A stretch of DNA of 64,000 nt from Cognaticolwellia beringensis (lineage in GTDB: Bacteria > Pseudomonadota > Gammaproteobacteria > Enterobacterales > Alteromonadaceae), in contig NZ_CP020465.1 of the NCBI RefSeq assembly GCF_002076895.1, positions 930,001 to 994,000 of the forward strand, read 5' to 3'. The translations under genes were made by a program, and so were the position numbers. Below, piece by piece: positions 11,352-17,628 of the stretch (positions are counted from its first letter, which is position 1; each line of letters begins with the position of its first letter). Under the pieces are notes generated by a model that saw only the letters and a program-made list of their open reading frames with translations, had not been told where the DNA came from and made no database searches.

Positions 11352-12206
11352 TTAAGGATAACTATTCAATTGCAATGGGCGTTGCCAAATGTGATTAAAG
11401 AGTGCTTGCTGAGTTGCGCAGCACTTTGAACTATAAAAGCTAGTTGTACCTAGGTTGTTACTGGTATTAATAAGTTGATGTAACGCTAATTGTCGCTGTA
11501 ATTGTTCGGTTACTGGTAATGCAGTTTCCATGATCACGACACTGTTGCCACATATTTCGTTAATCAAGTTTTTTACTAACGGATAATGTGTACAACCTAA
11601 AACGATAGTATCAACGCCTTTTTCCAGCAAGGGTTGTAGATAACCGGTTAACATTAATTTGCACTCAGACGCGTTTTTCTTATCTTGTTCTATAAGCTCG
11701 ACTAAGCCAGGACAGGGCTGAACAATTACATCGCTGTTTTGACTATATTGTGCAACTAAGGCTAAAAAACGCGGGTTTTGAGCTGTAGCTTTTGTCACTA
11801 ATATCGCCACTTTTTTATTTTTGCTTAAGTTTACCGCTGGCTTTATGGCGGGTTCTACACCAATAACAGGAATTAAAATATTTTTACGGAGTTGATCAAT
11901 CGCATTTACGGTCGCGGTATTACAGGCAACAACAATTGCTTTGGCCTTGCGTTCGATAAACCACTGAGCTATTTCATTAACGCGTTGCTGAATAAACTCA
12001 GACGACTTTTCACCATAAGGTGCATATAAAGTATCGGCAACATAGAGTAAGTTTTCATTGGGCAAGTGCTGATTTATGCATTGCGCGATAGATAAACCAC
12101 CCACGCCGGAGTCGAATATTCCAATAGGCTCCGCATTTATCGTTTGAAGCTCACTTTTTAAGGTTGAAACAGGAGCTTTTATATCAGCTATTTTTTGCGT
12201 GGGCAT
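11352..12206 (-). CDS. murI: Glutamate racemase
   Basis: MurI converts L- to D-glutamate for peptidoglycan. The 284-residue protein has an N-terminal extension of about 27 residues before the conserved PIGIFDSGVGGLSIAQ, then YVADTLYAPYGEKS, the first catalytic cysteine in VVACNTATVNAI, and the second in IVLGCTHYPLVKN. Both cysteines needed for two-base racemisation are present. The nearest ATG, at 12204-12206, gives the whole extension; a later start is possible but has no better ribosome site. Its upstream side faces the large repeat arrays. Confidence 0.94.
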   Translation of the reverse strand: MPTQKIADIKAPVSTLKSELQTINAEPIGIFDSGVGGLSIAQCINQHLPNENLLYVADTLYAPYGEKSSEFIQQRVNEIAQWFIERKAKAIVVACNTATVNAIDQLRKNILIPVIGVEPAIKPAVNLSKNKKVAILVTKATAQNPRFLALVAQYSQNSDVIVQPCPGLVELIEQDKKNASECKLMLTGYLQPLLEKGVDTIVLGCTHYPLVKNLINEICGNSVVIMETALPVTEQLQRQLALHQLINTSNNLGTTSFYSSKCCATQQALFNHIWQRPLQLNSYP

Positions 12207-12368
12207 TCAGTAAGTACAGCTTAGATCGAGGTGTAGTTAGTTGTGCTAAGTATATTATCAACAACCAAATGAGATCTATACATATTTAGATAAAGCAACG
12301 TGACTTGCTAAATATCGTAATCAAGATTATTTCTGCCTTCTATCAGCGTTTCTAATAATGAACAAATT

Positions 12369-14150
12369 TGACGGGCTGAAGCCCGACCTACAATTGTAGT
12401 GCTGTTGGCAGTGTTAGTGTGCGCAATGATTTACTTTGTAGGTCGGTGTTTACGCCGACAATGGTAAAATGGTAATTAACAGAACATTTTAGTTGTTGAT
12501 TTTATCAAGGTGTTAGTACCGTTAGTTTTACGGGCTGAAGCCCGACCTACAATTTTAGCGTTGGTGGCAGTGTAAGTGCGCAATGATTTCTCTTGTAGGT
12601 CGGTGTTTACGCCGACAATGGTAAAATGGTATTTAACAGAATATTTTAGTTGTTGAATTTATCAAGGTATCGGTACCGATAGTTTGACGGGCTGAAGCCC
12701 GACCTACAAATATAGCGTAGGTGGCAGTGTTAGTGTGCGCAATGATTTACTTTGTAGGTCGGTGTTTACGCCGACAATGGTAAATTGGTATTTAACAGAA
12801 CATTTTAGTTGTTGAATTTATCAAGGTATCGGTACCGTTAGTTTTACGGGCTGAAGCCCGACCTACATTTTAGCGCTGTTGGCAGTGTTAGTGTGCGCAA
12901 TGATTTACTTTGTAGGTCGGTGTTTACGCCGTCAATGGTAAAATGGTATTTAACAGAACATTTTAGTTGTTGATTTTATCAAGGTGTTAGTACCGTTAGT
13001 TTGACGGGCTGAAGCCCGACCTACAATTTTAGTGCTGTTGGCAGTGTTAGTGTGCGCAATGATTTACTTTGTAGGTCGGTGTTTACGCCGTCAATGGTAA
13101 CTTGGTATTTAACAGAATATTTTAGTTGTTGAATTTATCAAGGTATCGGTACCGTTAGTTTGACGGGCTGAAGCCCGACCTACAATTTTAGCGCGACTGT
13201 CTGAGTAATGTGCGCAATGATTTACTTTGTAGGTCGGTGTTTACGCCGTCAATGGTAACTTGGTATTTAACAGAATATTTTAGTTGTCGATTTTATCAAG
13301 GTATCAGTACCGATAGTTTGACGGGCTGAAGCCCGACCTACAATTTTAGAGCTGGTGGCAGTGTTAATGTGCGCAATGATTTACTTTGTAGGTCGGTGTT
13401 TACGCCGTCAATGGTAAAATGGTAATTAACAGAACATTTTAGTTGTTGAATTTATCAAGGTATCGGTACCGTTAGTTTGACGGGCTGAAGCCCGACCTAC
13501 AATTTTAGCGCGACTGTCTGAGTAATGTGCGCAATGATTTACTTTGTAGGTCGGTGTTTACGCCGTCAATGGTAACTTGGTATTTAACAGAATATTTTAG
13601 TTGTCGATTTTATCAAGGTATCAGTACCGATAGTTTGACGGGCTGAAGCCCGACCTACAATTTTAGAGCTGGTGGCAGTGTTAATGTGCGCAATGATTTA
13701 CTTTGTAGGTCGGTGTTTACGCCGTCAATGGTAAAATGGTAATTAACAGAACATTTTAGTTGTTGATTTTATCAAGGTATCAGTACCGTTAGTTTGACGG
13801 GCTGAAGCCCGACCTACAATTTTAGTGCTGTTGGCAGTGTTAGTGTGCGCAATGATTTCTCTTGTAGGTCGGTGTTTACGCCGACAATGGTAAAATGGTA
13901 ATTAACAGAAGATTTTAGTTGTTGAATTTATCAAGGTATCAGTACCGTTAGTTTGACGGGCTGAAGCCCGACCTACATTTTAGCGCTGTTGGCAGTGTTA
14001 GTGTGTGCAATGATTTACTTTGTAGGTCGGTGTTTACGCCGTCAATGGTAAAATGGTATTTAACAGAACATTTTAGTTGTTGAATTTATCAAGGTATCAG
14101 TACCGTTAGTTTGACGGGCTGAAGCCTGACCTACAATTTTAGCGTTGCTG
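12369..14150. repeat. Twelve-unit tandem array of ~158-bp REPIN-like units
   Basis: Each unit begins with ACGGGCTGAAGCCCGACCTA. Unit starts are 12371, 12530, 12687, 12846, 13004, 13163, 13321, 13480, 13638, 13797, 13956 and 14114, giving a period of 157-159 bp. The last unit is partial. Every unit holds a short palindrome (CGGGCT-GA-AGCCCG) and, about 45 bp on, a second hairpin (GTCGGTG-TTTA-CGCCGAC) in opposite orientation; CCGACCTACAA and TTGTAGGTCGG form an 11-bp long-range inverted repeat between them. About 70 bp of AT-rich spacer follows, itself conserved. This is the layout of a REPIN (paired inverted REP sequences) amplified in tandem. No long open frame runs through the array. Confidence 0.93.
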
Positions 14151-14190
14151 GTTATATTTATTTTTATGGGAATATCGGGGAGAATTTGGA

Positions 14191-14785
14191 AAGGTGACTT
14201 CCAAGGTGCCGCAGTTCACATTTGTCCTGAACACCGGGTGCTTGTTTAGTTCTGCGCGGACATATCATGATATTTACGGTGTTGAAAAATAAACGGAATG
14301 AAGGTGGTGATAAATAATGGGAAATATTAAATAAGAGAAAGGTGACTTCCAAGGTGCCGCAGTTCACATTTGTCCTGAACACCGGGTGCTTGTTTAGTGC
14401 TGCGCGGACATATCATTGATATTTATGGTGTTGAAAAATAAACGGAATGAGGGTGGTGATAAATAATGGGAAATATTAAATAAGAGAAAGGTGACTTCCA
14501 AGGTGCCGCAGTTCACATTTGTCCTGAACACCGGGTGCTTGTTTAGTGCTGCGCGGACATATCATGATATTTACGGTGTTGAAAAATAAACGGAATGAAG
14601 GTGGTGATAAATAATGGGAAATATTAAATAAGAGAAAGTGACTTCCAAGGTGCCGCAGTTCACATTTGTCCTGAACACCGGGTGCTTGTTTAGTGCTGCG
14701 CGGACATATCATTGATATTTAAGGTGTTGAAAAACAAACGGAATGAGGGTGGTGATAAATAATGGGAAATATTAAATAAGAGAAA
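14191..14785 (-). repeat. Four tandem ~148-bp partial duplications of the 6S RNA 3' part
   Basis: The block GGTGACTTCCAAGGTGCCGC recurs at 14193, 14341, 14490, about 14637 and 14786; the copy at 14786 belongs to the 6S RNA gene itself. Read in the 6S direction (minus strand), each extra unit holds about 80 bp of AT-rich spacer, GATATGTCCGC, an altered segment, then about 47 bases identical to the 6S 3' end (ACCCGGTGTTCAGG … CACCTTGGAAGTC). The left arm of the apical hairpin present in ssrS (CCTGAACACC) is replaced in the copies, so that hairpin cannot form, but the 3' strand of the closing stem is intact in all of them. The period is 148-149 bp, not a multiple of three. Confidence 0.9.
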
Positions 14786-14967
14786 GGTGACTTCCAAGGT
14801 GCCGCAGTTCACATTTGTCCTGAACACCGGGTGTTCAGGGCGGACGTATCATTCTAACCGTAGGCTTCCCGATACGAGCCGGGCTTGCACAATAGCTAAT
14901 AATCAACATCCTTAGGTAAAACTTATCGGCTCAGGGACATAGTTCACATACAAACACCCCAGAAGTC
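14786..14967 (-). ncRNA. ssrS: 6S RNA (RNA polymerase regulator)
   Basis: 6S RNA mimics an open promoter and binds sigma70 RNA polymerase in stationary phase. On the minus strand the sequence from about 14967 to 14786 (~182 nt, against 184 in E. coli) has GTCCCTGAGCCGATA, nearly identical to the E. coli segment, then ATCGGGAAGCC and a perfect 10-bp hairpin CCTGAACACC/GGTGTTCAGG at the conserved place. GACTTCTGGGGTG at the 5' end pairs with CACCTTGGAAGTC at the 3' end, giving the closing stem. The location just downstream of zapA on the same strand is the standard ssrS site. A consensus TATAAT lies 7 bp before the 5' end. The usual partner gene fau/ygfA is absent downstream; the repeat arrays lie there instead. 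Confidence 0.9.
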
Positions 14968-14973
14968 GAAACC

Positions 14974-15002
14974 ATTATAGCGAAAATTAGCGGCCGAATT
15001 AA
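14974..15002 (-). promoter_or_regulatory. Promoter of ssrS
   Basis: On the minus strand a perfect TATAAT (14974-14979) ends 7 bp before the predicted 6S RNA 5' end. A weaker -35 candidate, TTAATT at 14997-15002, lies 17 bp upstream. The spacing suits sigma70. The start point is inferred from the base of the closing stem. Confidence 0.65.
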
Positions 15003-15108
15003 GTCTTTTATCACTTGTAAGACCTGATTGCTTAATGCTTGAACAAATTGAAGTTTCTTTGAACGGAAAGAACTTTATTTAAAATCTATAAAACAGTAAA
15101 TGGGTTAG

Positions 15109-15414
15109 TTAGGCAGTTTTTGGGCGGTTTACCGCTTGTTCAATAGTCGCTTGTAGCAATTCGATTTTGCTTTGCATTTTTTCACGTTCTTGCTCTAAAT
15201 CATTACGAGTTTGAAGTAAATCATGGGCAAGGTTTAATGACATCATAACTAAGGCTTGTTCGGGGGATTTTACTGATTGAGATTTCTTGGCGTCTTGCTC
15301 TAAACGTTGGTTTATTTCATTCGCCGCTTGCAACAACGCAGACTCATGGCCAGCAGGACAAGCGACTTTTAGTCGTTTGTTGGCAACATTTATAGTAACT
15401 GTGTGTTGGCTCAT
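15109..15414 (-). CDS. zapA: Cell division protein ZapA
   Basis: ZapA binds FtsZ filaments and bundles them at the division ring. The 101-residue protein has the N-terminal VTINVANKRLKVACPAGHE β-domain, then the LLQAANEINQRLEQDA helix, LVMMSLNLAHDLLQ, and a C-terminal coiled coil (residues ~65-95, rich in E, Q, K and L). Size and domains match E. coli ZapA. It is divergent from the UPF0149 gene and upstream of ssrS, the standard order. The 6S promoter lies 107 bp after its stop. Confidence 0.95.
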   Translation of the reverse strand: MSQHTVTINVANKRLKVACPAGHESALLQAANEINQRLEQDAKKSQSVKSPEQALVMMSLNLAHDLLQTRNDLEQEREKMQSKIELLQATIEQAVNRPKTA

Positions 15415-15647
15415 TGCGTTGTTATTCTCAATGCATCATATTAGTTTATTGAGCCGTTAGCTCAAAATATTACGCTACTAGCTTGTAATACCAAGAAAAA
15501 AAGTGATAACAAAACTTAGTGCGCCATAAAGGGGAACTATAACGATGAGTGTTACACTATGCAAGTGATCTCTATGGTTTTTTCTGGAATCAAGGCTATG
15601 CCAATGTTAAGATAGCTAGCAATATACCCCGATTGAATTTATATTTT

Positions 15648-16217
15648 ATGGCTGATAGCACCTCTTTAGATTTTTCCTCCGTACAAGCGATTTTAACTAG
15701 TGAAGGTATCGAAGCACATGCCGCTGAAATTCATGGTGTGCTCACAGGTTTGATTTCTGCTGGCTTTGAGTTTGAAAGTAGTGACTATATCGCTATGGTT
15801 AACGACATGCTCAATAATGCTGAAGGATTACCAACAGCAATTAAAAGCTTAGTAAAAGACATTTACAGTGATATTTGGCAGAAAATTCTTGATGACTCGT
15901 ATGGTTTCCAATTAATGCTACCAGATGACGACGACTCAATTATTGAACGCGGACATGCACTGGGTAAATGGGTACAAGGCTTTAACTTAGGCTTTGGCTT
16001 ACAACAAACAAAAAATGCGGCTTTGTCTGAAGATGTTAAAGAAGTGCTGGTAGATTTTGGTGAAATTGCTAACTTGTCTGACGAAATGGAAGAAAATGAA
16101 GCTACCGAGCAAGCTTATTTTGAAATTGCTGAATATGTCAGAATTTCCGCTTTACTCTGTTTTACCGAATTAGGCGCACCACCAGCGCAACAGGATAAAA
16201 CAGAAACTTTGCACTAG
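15648..16217 (+). CDS. UPF0149 (YgfB-like) family protein
   Basis: This cytoplasmic protein of 189 residues is in the YgfB/UPF0149 family. It starts MADSTSLDFSSVQAIL and contains AAEIHGVLTGLISAGF, FQLMLPDDDDSIIERG, LGKWVQGFNLGFGL and EYVRISALLCF. Homologues sit between zapA and pepP. The frame is open further upstream to 15549, but those 33 codons have no family similarity, and the ATG at 15648 matches the known N-terminus. In Pseudomonas, YgfB has been linked to repression of an autolysis/antibiotic-resistance programme; the role here is unknown. Confidence 0.92.
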   Translation: MADSTSLDFSSVQAILTSEGIEAHAAEIHGVLTGLISAGFEFESSDYIAMVNDMLNNAEGLPTAIKSLVKDIYSDIWQKILDDSYGFQLMLPDDDDSIIERGHALGKWVQGFNLGFGLQQTKNAALSEDVKEVLVDFGEIANLSDEMEENEATEQAYFEIAEYVRISALLCFTELGAPPAQQDKTETLH

Positions 16218-16225
16218 AACTTTCG

Positions 16226-16257
16226 ACTAAAGTGCTTTTCAATTAAAGCACTTTAGT
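16226..16257 (+). terminator. Hairpin between UPF0149 gene and pepP
   Basis: A 13-bp perfect inverted repeat (ACTAAAGTGCTTT / AAAGCACTTTAGT) with a six-base loop starts 9 bp after the UPF0149 stop. No clear T-run follows, so it may be an mRNA-stabilising or partial terminator structure inside an operon. Confidence 0.5.
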
Positions 16258-16293
16258 GATAAAAATTTAGCTATAAAAAGTAAGCTGATAACC

Positions 16294-17628
16294 ATGATCA
16301 AAAATACCTTGTTGCCCGTTGCTGAGTTTCTTCAGCGAAGAAACGATTTTATTGCCCAAATGCCAGCCAATAGCCTTGCACTAATTTCTGCCGGCAAAGA
16401 AGTCACGCGCAGTAATGATACCGAATATCCGTTTTGCCAAAGTAAGCACTTTTATTATCTCACTGGTTTTAACGAACCAGATGCAATTTTGGTATTAATT
16501 AAAGGTGATGAGTCAGCGAAAAGCATTTTATTTTCCCGTGAAAAAGACCCTCTACAAGAAATTTGGCATGGGCGGCGCGTTGGTCAAGTACAAGCTATTG
16601 AAATGTACAAGTTTGACAACTGCTTTAGTTTAGACGAAGTTGACGAGCAATTATTGCCGCTATTTATGGGCAAAGCGGCGGTATTAATTTGTCAGCAAGA
16701 GCAAAATCAATTTCAGCAACAAGTACTCACATGGTTAGCTGAAATTAGAAAAGCGGCTCGAACTGGTGTTAAAGCGCCAACCACCTTGATTGATTGCAGT
16801 GGTTTACTCGATGAGATGCGTTTACATAAATCCAATGCCGAGCTCGACATTATGCGTCAAGTTAATGTCATTAGTGGCGCTGCACATCAACGAGCCATGC
16901 AACAAACTCAAGCGGGTAAATTTGAATATCAAATAGAAGCAGAATTACTGCACGAATTTGCCACTAATGGCGCGCGTCATCCTGCATACAATTCAATTGT
17001 TGCTGGTGGCGACAATGCCAATATTTTACATTACACCGACAATGACGAAGTGCTCAATGACGGTGACTTATTATTGATTGATGCCGGTGGAGAGTTAGCC
17101 GGTTATGCCGCTGATATCACCCGTACATTTCCGGTGAATGGCAAATTTAATACTGAACAAAGCACTCTCTATCAATTAGTGCTTGATAGCCAAGTATTAG
17201 CTATTAACGCCATTAAACCTGGCCAAACGCTTGCCGAATTAAACCGCATAGTTTGTGAGTTTCTCACCCAAGGTTTATATGATTTAGGCATTTTAAAGGG
17301 TAACGTAAACGTATTATTAGCCCAACGTGCCTGTAAAAAGTATTTTATTCATGGTTTAGGGCACTGGTTAGGTCTTGATGTACATGATGTTGGTGATTAC
17401 CATGCTAGCCCACAGCGCGAGCAATTACGTCCGTTTGTCGCCGGTATGGTCATGACTATTGAACCGGGTATTTACATCCCAAGCAGTGATAAAACAGTTG
17501 ATGAAAAATGGCGTGGTATTGGCGTGCGTATCGAAGACAATATATTGGTAACCGCAACCGGTTTTGAAAACATAACGGTTAATGCGCCAAAAACCATCGC
17601 TGATATTGAAGCGTTAATGTCGCAGTAA
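16294..17628 (+). CDS. pepP: Xaa-Pro aminopeptidase
   Basis: PepP removes N-terminal residues ahead of proline. The 444-residue enzyme aligns from its N-terminus with E. coli PepP (RRNDFIAQMPANSLALI, YLTGFNEPDAILVLI). The pita-bread catalytic domain shows the metal ligands in LIDAGGELAGYAADITRTFP (two Asp), FIHGLGHWLGLDVHDVG (His), TIEPGIYI (Glu) and GVRIEDN (Glu). All five are present. It is followed 20 bp on by ubiH; the pepP-ubiH-ubiI order is conserved. Confidence 0.97.
   Translation: MIKNTLLPVAEFLQRRNDFIAQMPANSLALISAGKEVTRSNDTEYPFCQSKHFYYLTGFNEPDAILVLIKGDESAKSILFSREKDPLQEIWHGRRVGQVQAIEMYKFDNCFSLDEVDEQLLPLFMGKAAVLICQQEQNQFQQQVLTWLAEIRKAARTGVKAPTTLIDCSGLLDEMRLHKSNAELDIMRQVNVISGAAHQRAMQQTQAGKFEYQIEAELLHEFATNGARHPAYNSIVAGGDNANILHYTDNDEVLNDGDLLLIDAGGELAGYAADITRTFPVNGKFNTEQSTLYQLVLDSQVLAINAIKPGQTLAELNRIVCEFLTQGLYDLGILKGNVNVLLAQRACKKYFIHGLGHWLGLDVHDVGDYHASPQREQLRPFVAGMVMTIEPGIYIPSSDKTVDEKWRGIGVRIEDNILVTATGFENITVNAPKTIADIEALMSQ

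Follow-up and report, generated by a model that had tools for sequence, protein, structure and literature searches.

Tandem arrays of the 6S RNA 3´ arm behind ssrS in Cognaticolwellia beringensis and its relatives

6S RNA is a small RNA that blocks RNA polymerase. We analyzed the region around its gene, ssrS, in a stretch of 64,000 nucleotides from Cognaticolwellia beringensis (contig NZ_CP020465.1; hereafter the window). Here ssrS has zapA as its upstream neighbor, is followed by four tandem units and by a separate array of a different kind, and has an Asp/Glu racemase family gene as the next longer gene downstream (Table 1). The gene is an ordinary member of the RF00013 family: a covariance search with the Rfam 6S model, suggested as a check in an earlier, preliminary description of this DNA, found it with 94.9 bits, where the gathering cut-off is 46.4 bits. 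At gathering scores the window has no other Rfam match, and the genome, a single contig of 4.66 Mb, has no second match to 6S.

Table 1. Features of the ssrS region, with positions counted from the first letter of the window
Feature	Position	Strand	Basis
ssrS, 6S RNA gene	14787-14968	minus	Rfam RF00013, 94.9 bits, full model 1-187
5´ closing strand of 6S, GACTTCTGGGGTG	14955-14967	minus	sequence reading; start of model match
6S own 3´ arm, the repeated 47 nt	14787-14833	minus	
Hairpin of 9 bp, 3´ central bubble of 6S (CCTGAACAC / GTGTTCAGG), absent from units	14819-14839	minus	sequence, local folding
Unit 1, 149 bp; arm 14638-14684	14638-14786	minus	
Unit 2, 147 bp; arm 14491-14537	14491-14637	minus	
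Unit 3, 149 bp; arm 14342-14388	14342-14490	minus	
Unit 4, 148 bp; arm 14194-14240	14194-14341	minus	
zapA, upstream neighbor of ssrS	15109-15414	minus	PF05164 ZapA, E 4.4e-19
Asp/Glu racemase family gene (murI-like), next longer gene downstream of ssrS	11352-12206	minus	PF01177, E 2.9e-22; ORF list
Separate array, 159-bp units x 11.3, palindromic elements	12367-14151		TRF

Each unit begins with a C/T-rich, G-poor spacer, continues with a short unit-specific core, and ends in the last 47 nt of 6S RNA, CACCTTGGAAGTC included, without a mismatch in any of the four. TRF describes positions 14189-14833 as a repeat with a period of 148 bp, 4.4 copies and 97% matches. The Rfam match, the TRF repeat and the exact 47-nt runs bear out what the preliminary description had read from the sequence, namely ssrS followed by four units of about 148 bp that end in the 6S 3´ arm. 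The strand that closes the 6S stem is retained in every unit, as had also been claimed. The same description had the apical hairpin arm replaced; there is indeed a replacement, but it affects the 9-bp hairpin of the 3´ central bubble, whose 5´ half is the part lost. The units lack the 6S 5´ half, the apical stem and the release hairpin, and are not members of RF00013: when 12000-17000 was scanned with the 6S model, also at E values up to 1, only ssrS matched, and the units received no 6S score. In a chance control by local alignment, the window arms scored 45 of 45, and the best of 375 trials with shuffled downstream sequence scored 14; 20 of these trials were empty (from four loci with less than 100 nt). 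A genome-wide search with the unit returned the four units and the 6S tail, and otherwise 17 short matches, all with E > 1.

The 159-bp array further downstream, with its inverted palindromic elements, is REP-like. With up to two mismatches allowed, the genome contains 86 occurrences of a 23-nt element from this array, many of them clustered, and none of the element read backwards. The neighborhood also differs from that of E. coli, where ygfA (fau) lies downstream of ssrS, as given in the title of Chae et al. (2011); in the window's genome a racemase gene takes that place, and fau (PF01812) is found half a megabase from ssrS, at G000:C1:417607-418197.

Arrays of 6S tails are found well beyond this genome. 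We compared 75 ssrS loci, 36 of which come from the window, 16 genomes of the same genus and 19 of the same family, while the remaining 39 were obtained by scanning for the 6S loop, 14 duplicates having been removed. Thirty of the 75 loci carry full units, 65 in total. The 45 loci that have no full unit comprise two with partial units only (L088, L123), three with diverged remnants (G007, G011, G012), 36 with no unit in the available sequence, and four that end within 100 nt of 6S. Carriers are named as Colwellia, Cognaticolwellia, a Thalassotalea MAG and a Colwelliaceae MAG. The comparison of copy number across Colwelliaceae, another suggestion of the preliminary description, proved useful: in the window's genus, full units are present in 10 of 17 genomes and their number varies from 0 to 7, with none in G005, G008, G009 and G014. 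At eight of the 75 loci the contig ends no more than 520 nt behind 6S (G002, G003, G010, L077, L081, L096, L104, L124), and collapsed repeats could be the cause.

Several loci show further rearrangements. About 860 nt behind ssrS of G007 (L038), the place of the array seems, by eye, to be filled by other repeats, with a single diverged 6S arm at their far end. In L123 and L108, part of the unit arm appears to have been swapped for another short sequence, which in L123 could fold as a hairpin (both by eye). Unit 2 of L034 (G003) matches the last 27 nt of the arm only, and the sequence ahead of it has palindromes of its own, again by eye.

Outside the window's family we searched 82 6S loci, from all 22 genomes of the same order with a 6S match and from 60 of 90 other genomes. 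A clear arm copy was present at one of them, with a score of 34 against a maximum of 13 among 82 shuffles; the next score, 16.5, also exceeds the shuffle maximum, but belongs to a GC-rich sequence and reads as a chance match. In the second family, 12 genomes were searched and five had a match additional to 6S, all in one genus. G166 has five units in 82-bp steps, and the loci of G043, G163 and G167, when read, contain more diverged units. The layout is that of the window: a T/C-rich stretch, an altered middle, and the 6S 3´ arm. When 394 genomes of the order were scanned with a sequence model of the unit, six had at least two matches, namely G000, G488 and four members of the second family. 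This count reflects a model favoring close relatives and a draw with few genomes of the window's genus, so that arrays of other tails could escape. The existence of 6S-tail arrays at 30 of the 75 related loci, and in a genus of a second family, is confirmed. A genome of the same class (G100) has five scattered matches to the 6S model, one of them above the cut-off.

How the copies change over time can be read from the comparison, in which the units appear as tandem duplicates whose arms track the gene of their own genome. Among 25 distinct tails, the own 6S tail was the best or tied match for 65 of 65 units, and strictly the best for 60; mean identity was 42.2 of 45 positions with the tail of the own genome and 35.7 with those of other genomes. 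Because the own tail is best or tied throughout, we infer that copies and gene recombine. Mismatches to the own tail amount to 11% in the part of the arm that closes the bubble, 6% in the unpaired loop, 2.6% in the closing stem and 2.8% in the last four nucleotides. Since the paired bubble-closing part has more mismatches than the unpaired loop, the gradient follows distance from the 3´ end and not pairing, and a fall toward the 3´ end is the pattern expected if recombination must leave 6S intact. Selection on the closing strand would also fit the low value in the closing stem.

The remaining parts of the unit differ in how well they are kept. Between genomes, spacers are no more alike than chance would have it (identity 0.50 against 0.47 for shuffled sequence, and 0.52 against 0.55 in a second comparison), whereas the core reaches 0.77 against 0.57, and the 15-nt middle that occurs only in units 0.69 against 0.56. 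This argues that the core may be constrained, or exchanged between species; plain duplication of a terminator leaves the between-genome likeness of the unit-specific middle unexplained. Within the arrays of G001, G013, G015, L079, L087 and L109, spacer identities are 0.16-0.65, the low value of L087 being due to unequal length, while those of the core are 0.83-0.96 and of the arm 0.82-0.95; L100 is an exception, with a within-array core identity of 0.59. Of 16 arrays with at least two units, the last unit is the most diverged in six (G002, G004, G013, G015, L079, L087), decay of the last unit is absent in seven, and three are even. Degenerate pieces could be seen by eye beyond the last unit of G001, G013 and G016. 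A search with RNAalifold for a conserved fold of the unit, with one unit from each of 31 genomes, returned no structure.

Spacer composition is another constant. In spacers of 16-199 nt, a set from which L117 (15 nt) falls below the length cut, all 31 genomes have more C than G, at median fractions of 0.21 and 0.058, respectively. C also exceeds G in the first 100 nt behind 6S in 34 of 36 genomes that have no units; an excess of C over G is a general trait behind ssrS, and the array is not singled out by its composition. It seems that the G-poor composition belonged to the ssrS 3´ region and was copied together with it. Among about 4,300 overlapping intergenic segments of the window, 3 to 29 have a C-over-G excess as large as that of its four spacers. 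No intrinsic terminator was found in a pattern scan of 13900-15500, a region in which shuffled sequence gave only 1.1 matches, and the rho gene is present in the genome. Judged by composition and pattern scan, the region behind ssrS, C-rich, G-poor and with no intrinsic-terminator match, would qualify as a candidate Rho-dependent terminator, and in these respects it resembles the Rho-dependent terminator of E. coli ssrS, named as such in the title of Chae et al. (2011) and as a "rho terminator" at the 3´ side of 6S in PMC10406553. Spacer lengths range over 15-190 nt, and the shortest, in L117 (15 nt) and L122 (27 nt), would leave little room for Rho loading on their own.

The element that the units have lost is one with an assigned role. 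According to PMC8876501, pRNA synthesis in E. coli and other gamma-proteobacteria is accompanied by folding of a 9-bp hairpin in the 3´ central bubble, and this hairpin contributes strongly to release. Local folding gave a mean of -13.3 kcal/mol for 30 6S RNAs and of -2.9 kcal/mol for 65 units, the most stable of which reached -8.0. The window is typical, with -13.4 kcal/mol for 6S and -2.2 to -3.2 for its four units, and five unit segments of the second family gave -1.4 to -4.4 against -15.1 kcal/mol for their own 6S. On these values the units do not form the 9-bp hairpin of gamma-proteobacteria, and therefore a 6S RNA closed by a unit arm would have its stem and lack its release hairpin.

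The preliminary description had proposed that any of five arms could be the partner of the single 5´ strand, giving alternative long 6S isoforms. Such pairing is physically plausible: in equilibrium folds of the whole read-through transcript, the 5´ strand lay on a downstream arm and not on its own in 13 of 13 genomes (of the 30), and a downstream arm was again chosen in 12 of 12 with altered multiloop values. However, when spacer and core were shuffled (8 genomes), a unit arm was taken in 168 of 174 folds, no arm in 6, and the own arm in 0. Since the shuffled controls behave alike, downstream pairing is generic to any repeated arm and is no sign of an evolved switch, and we rejected equilibrium folding as evidence for one. 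In each of 14 genomes (of the 30), the hybrid that the 6S 5´ half formed with a unit was weaker, by 1.6 to 13.7 kcal/mol, than its hybrid with the own arm, and the own arm, which is transcribed first, would usually win the pairing. Zipping of the bubble, by pairing of the unit middle with the 5´ bubble strand, was likewise rejected, the hybrids being less stable than shuffled ones (mean z +0.64, positive in 11 of 14 genomes, of the 30). The isoforms are possible, but these results do not support them.

These results bear on the functional readings of the array. If the 6S 5´ strand did pair with a unit arm after read-through, the product would be a long 6S RNA with a closing stem, an open bubble and no release hairpin, and RNA polymerase would be released from it poorly. 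This agrees with the closing strand having the fewest mismatches of all parts of the arm, with the loss in both families of a hairpin that contributes strongly to gamma-proteobacterial release, and with the choice of a downstream arm in the unshuffled folds, yet shuffled units pair in the same way, the unit hybrids are the weaker ones, the own arm is made earlier, the bubble-closing part is altered in many units, and 45 of the 75 loci, four of them with less than 100 nt of sequence, have no full unit. We consider this reading unlikely, and equally improbable the broader proposal built on it, that the array stores alternative 3´ halves of 6S, whose read-through forms bind RNA polymerase and let go late, at a frequency set by copy number, in two lineages. 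Less probable still is that unit RNAs act in trans, as decoys for the 6S 5´ strand or as separate small RNAs. The arms are complementary to the 5´ strand, and closing-stem pairs number 14.3 when arm and 5´ strand come from one genome and 13.7 when the 5´ strand is from another; but the unit has no conserved fold, its middle has no advantage over shuffled sequence in pairing with the 6S 5´ half, and a scan of 13900-15500 for promoter-like sites found none where shuffles gave 3.9, a weak result given that the promoter of ssrS itself was missed as well.

Integrating elements commonly leave an RNA gene with a repeated 3´ end, and the units might be attachment-site scars left at the ssrS 3´ end. 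Spacer lengths of 15-190 nt argue against such scars, as does the failure to find the unit at any other place in the genome; behind 13 arrays, no integrase was recognized by eye alone in the first two longer open frames, and two scans of viral contigs gave no match to the 6S loop and one to the unit pattern, which reads as chance and led us to reject mobile or viral spread. An origin of this kind is, in our view, highly improbable. A far stronger contender is a functionless tandem repeat that overlaps the end of ssrS and is kept near the gene by crossing-over alone. Full units ranging from none to seven in one genus, degenerate remnants in three genomes, the mismatch gradient along the arm and the lack of a conserved self-structure are all what an inert satellite would give. 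It accounts less well for cores that are above shuffled likeness between genomes when spacers are not, for spacers that are G-poor in 31 of 31 genomes, for cores and arms that are kept in six arrays where spacers differ (apart from L100), and for arrays laid out alike in a second family. We hold it to be a realistic possibility.

We tentatively favor, over inert repeats that come close behind, the reading that the units are tandem duplicates of a 6S 3´-end and termination module, kept uniform through recombination with ssrS. In this model, units would arise by duplication of the 6S 3´-end region downstream of ssrS, the length of the array would change by unequal crossing-over, and recombination between arm and gene would keep the arms near the gene sequence. 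The array would probably be transcribed as a trailer of ssrS, the G-poor, C/T-rich spacers would resemble a Rho-loading zone, and the units may serve as redundant modules for Rho-dependent stopping and 3´ trimming that lie outside mature 6S. Distal decay, expected if the gene refreshes the proximal copies, is seen in a minority of arrays only, and this would count against the termination-module reading.

The closest known kind of array is that of tyrT/RtT in E. coli, which shares the architecture and not the sequence. At the tyrT locus of E. coli MG1655, TRF finds a 178-bp repeat in 3.1 copies behind tyrV, each unit carries the 19-nt 3´ end of tRNA-Tyr, AATCCTTCCCCCACCACCA, and four matches to RtT (RF00391) served as a positive control; the same model has no match in the window, whose units are not members of that family. 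The tyrT repeat contains a Rho-dependent stop. Both arrays consist of tandem units directly behind a structural RNA gene, each with the 3´ end of the mature RNA, but the RNA is a tRNA in one case and 6S, the RF00013 RNA from which the arms derive, in the other, and 19 nt are copied there against 47 nt here. In the 6S arrays, in addition, the copies were followed over many species and track the gene, and their arm has lost its hairpin. In the Bacillus cereus group, two tandem 6S genes are described (PMC7726162), so that more than one 6S-related piece lies at one place, although as 6S genes and not, as here, 3´ arms only. The statement that amplified 6S 3´ arms had not been described holds for the literature searched, in that none appears in the titles and abstract openings among the matches listed for tandem or duplicated 6S in open-licence papers, but the tRNA-tail repeats at tyrT do provide a parallel. 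Among the open-licence papers searched, none mentions 6S RNA together with Colwellia, and none joins rtT RNA, tyrT and repeat.

6S RNA is well studied, but to our knowledge little is known about how its 3´ end is formed and its transcription stopped outside E. coli. The presence, in many species, of 6S arm arrays that change fast and track their gene means that tail arrays are not limited to one tRNA locus. The natural variants in copy number can be used for measuring the effects of extra arms on the length, level and release of 6S RNA, and, if the arms are used, this would represent a new way of varying 6S function.
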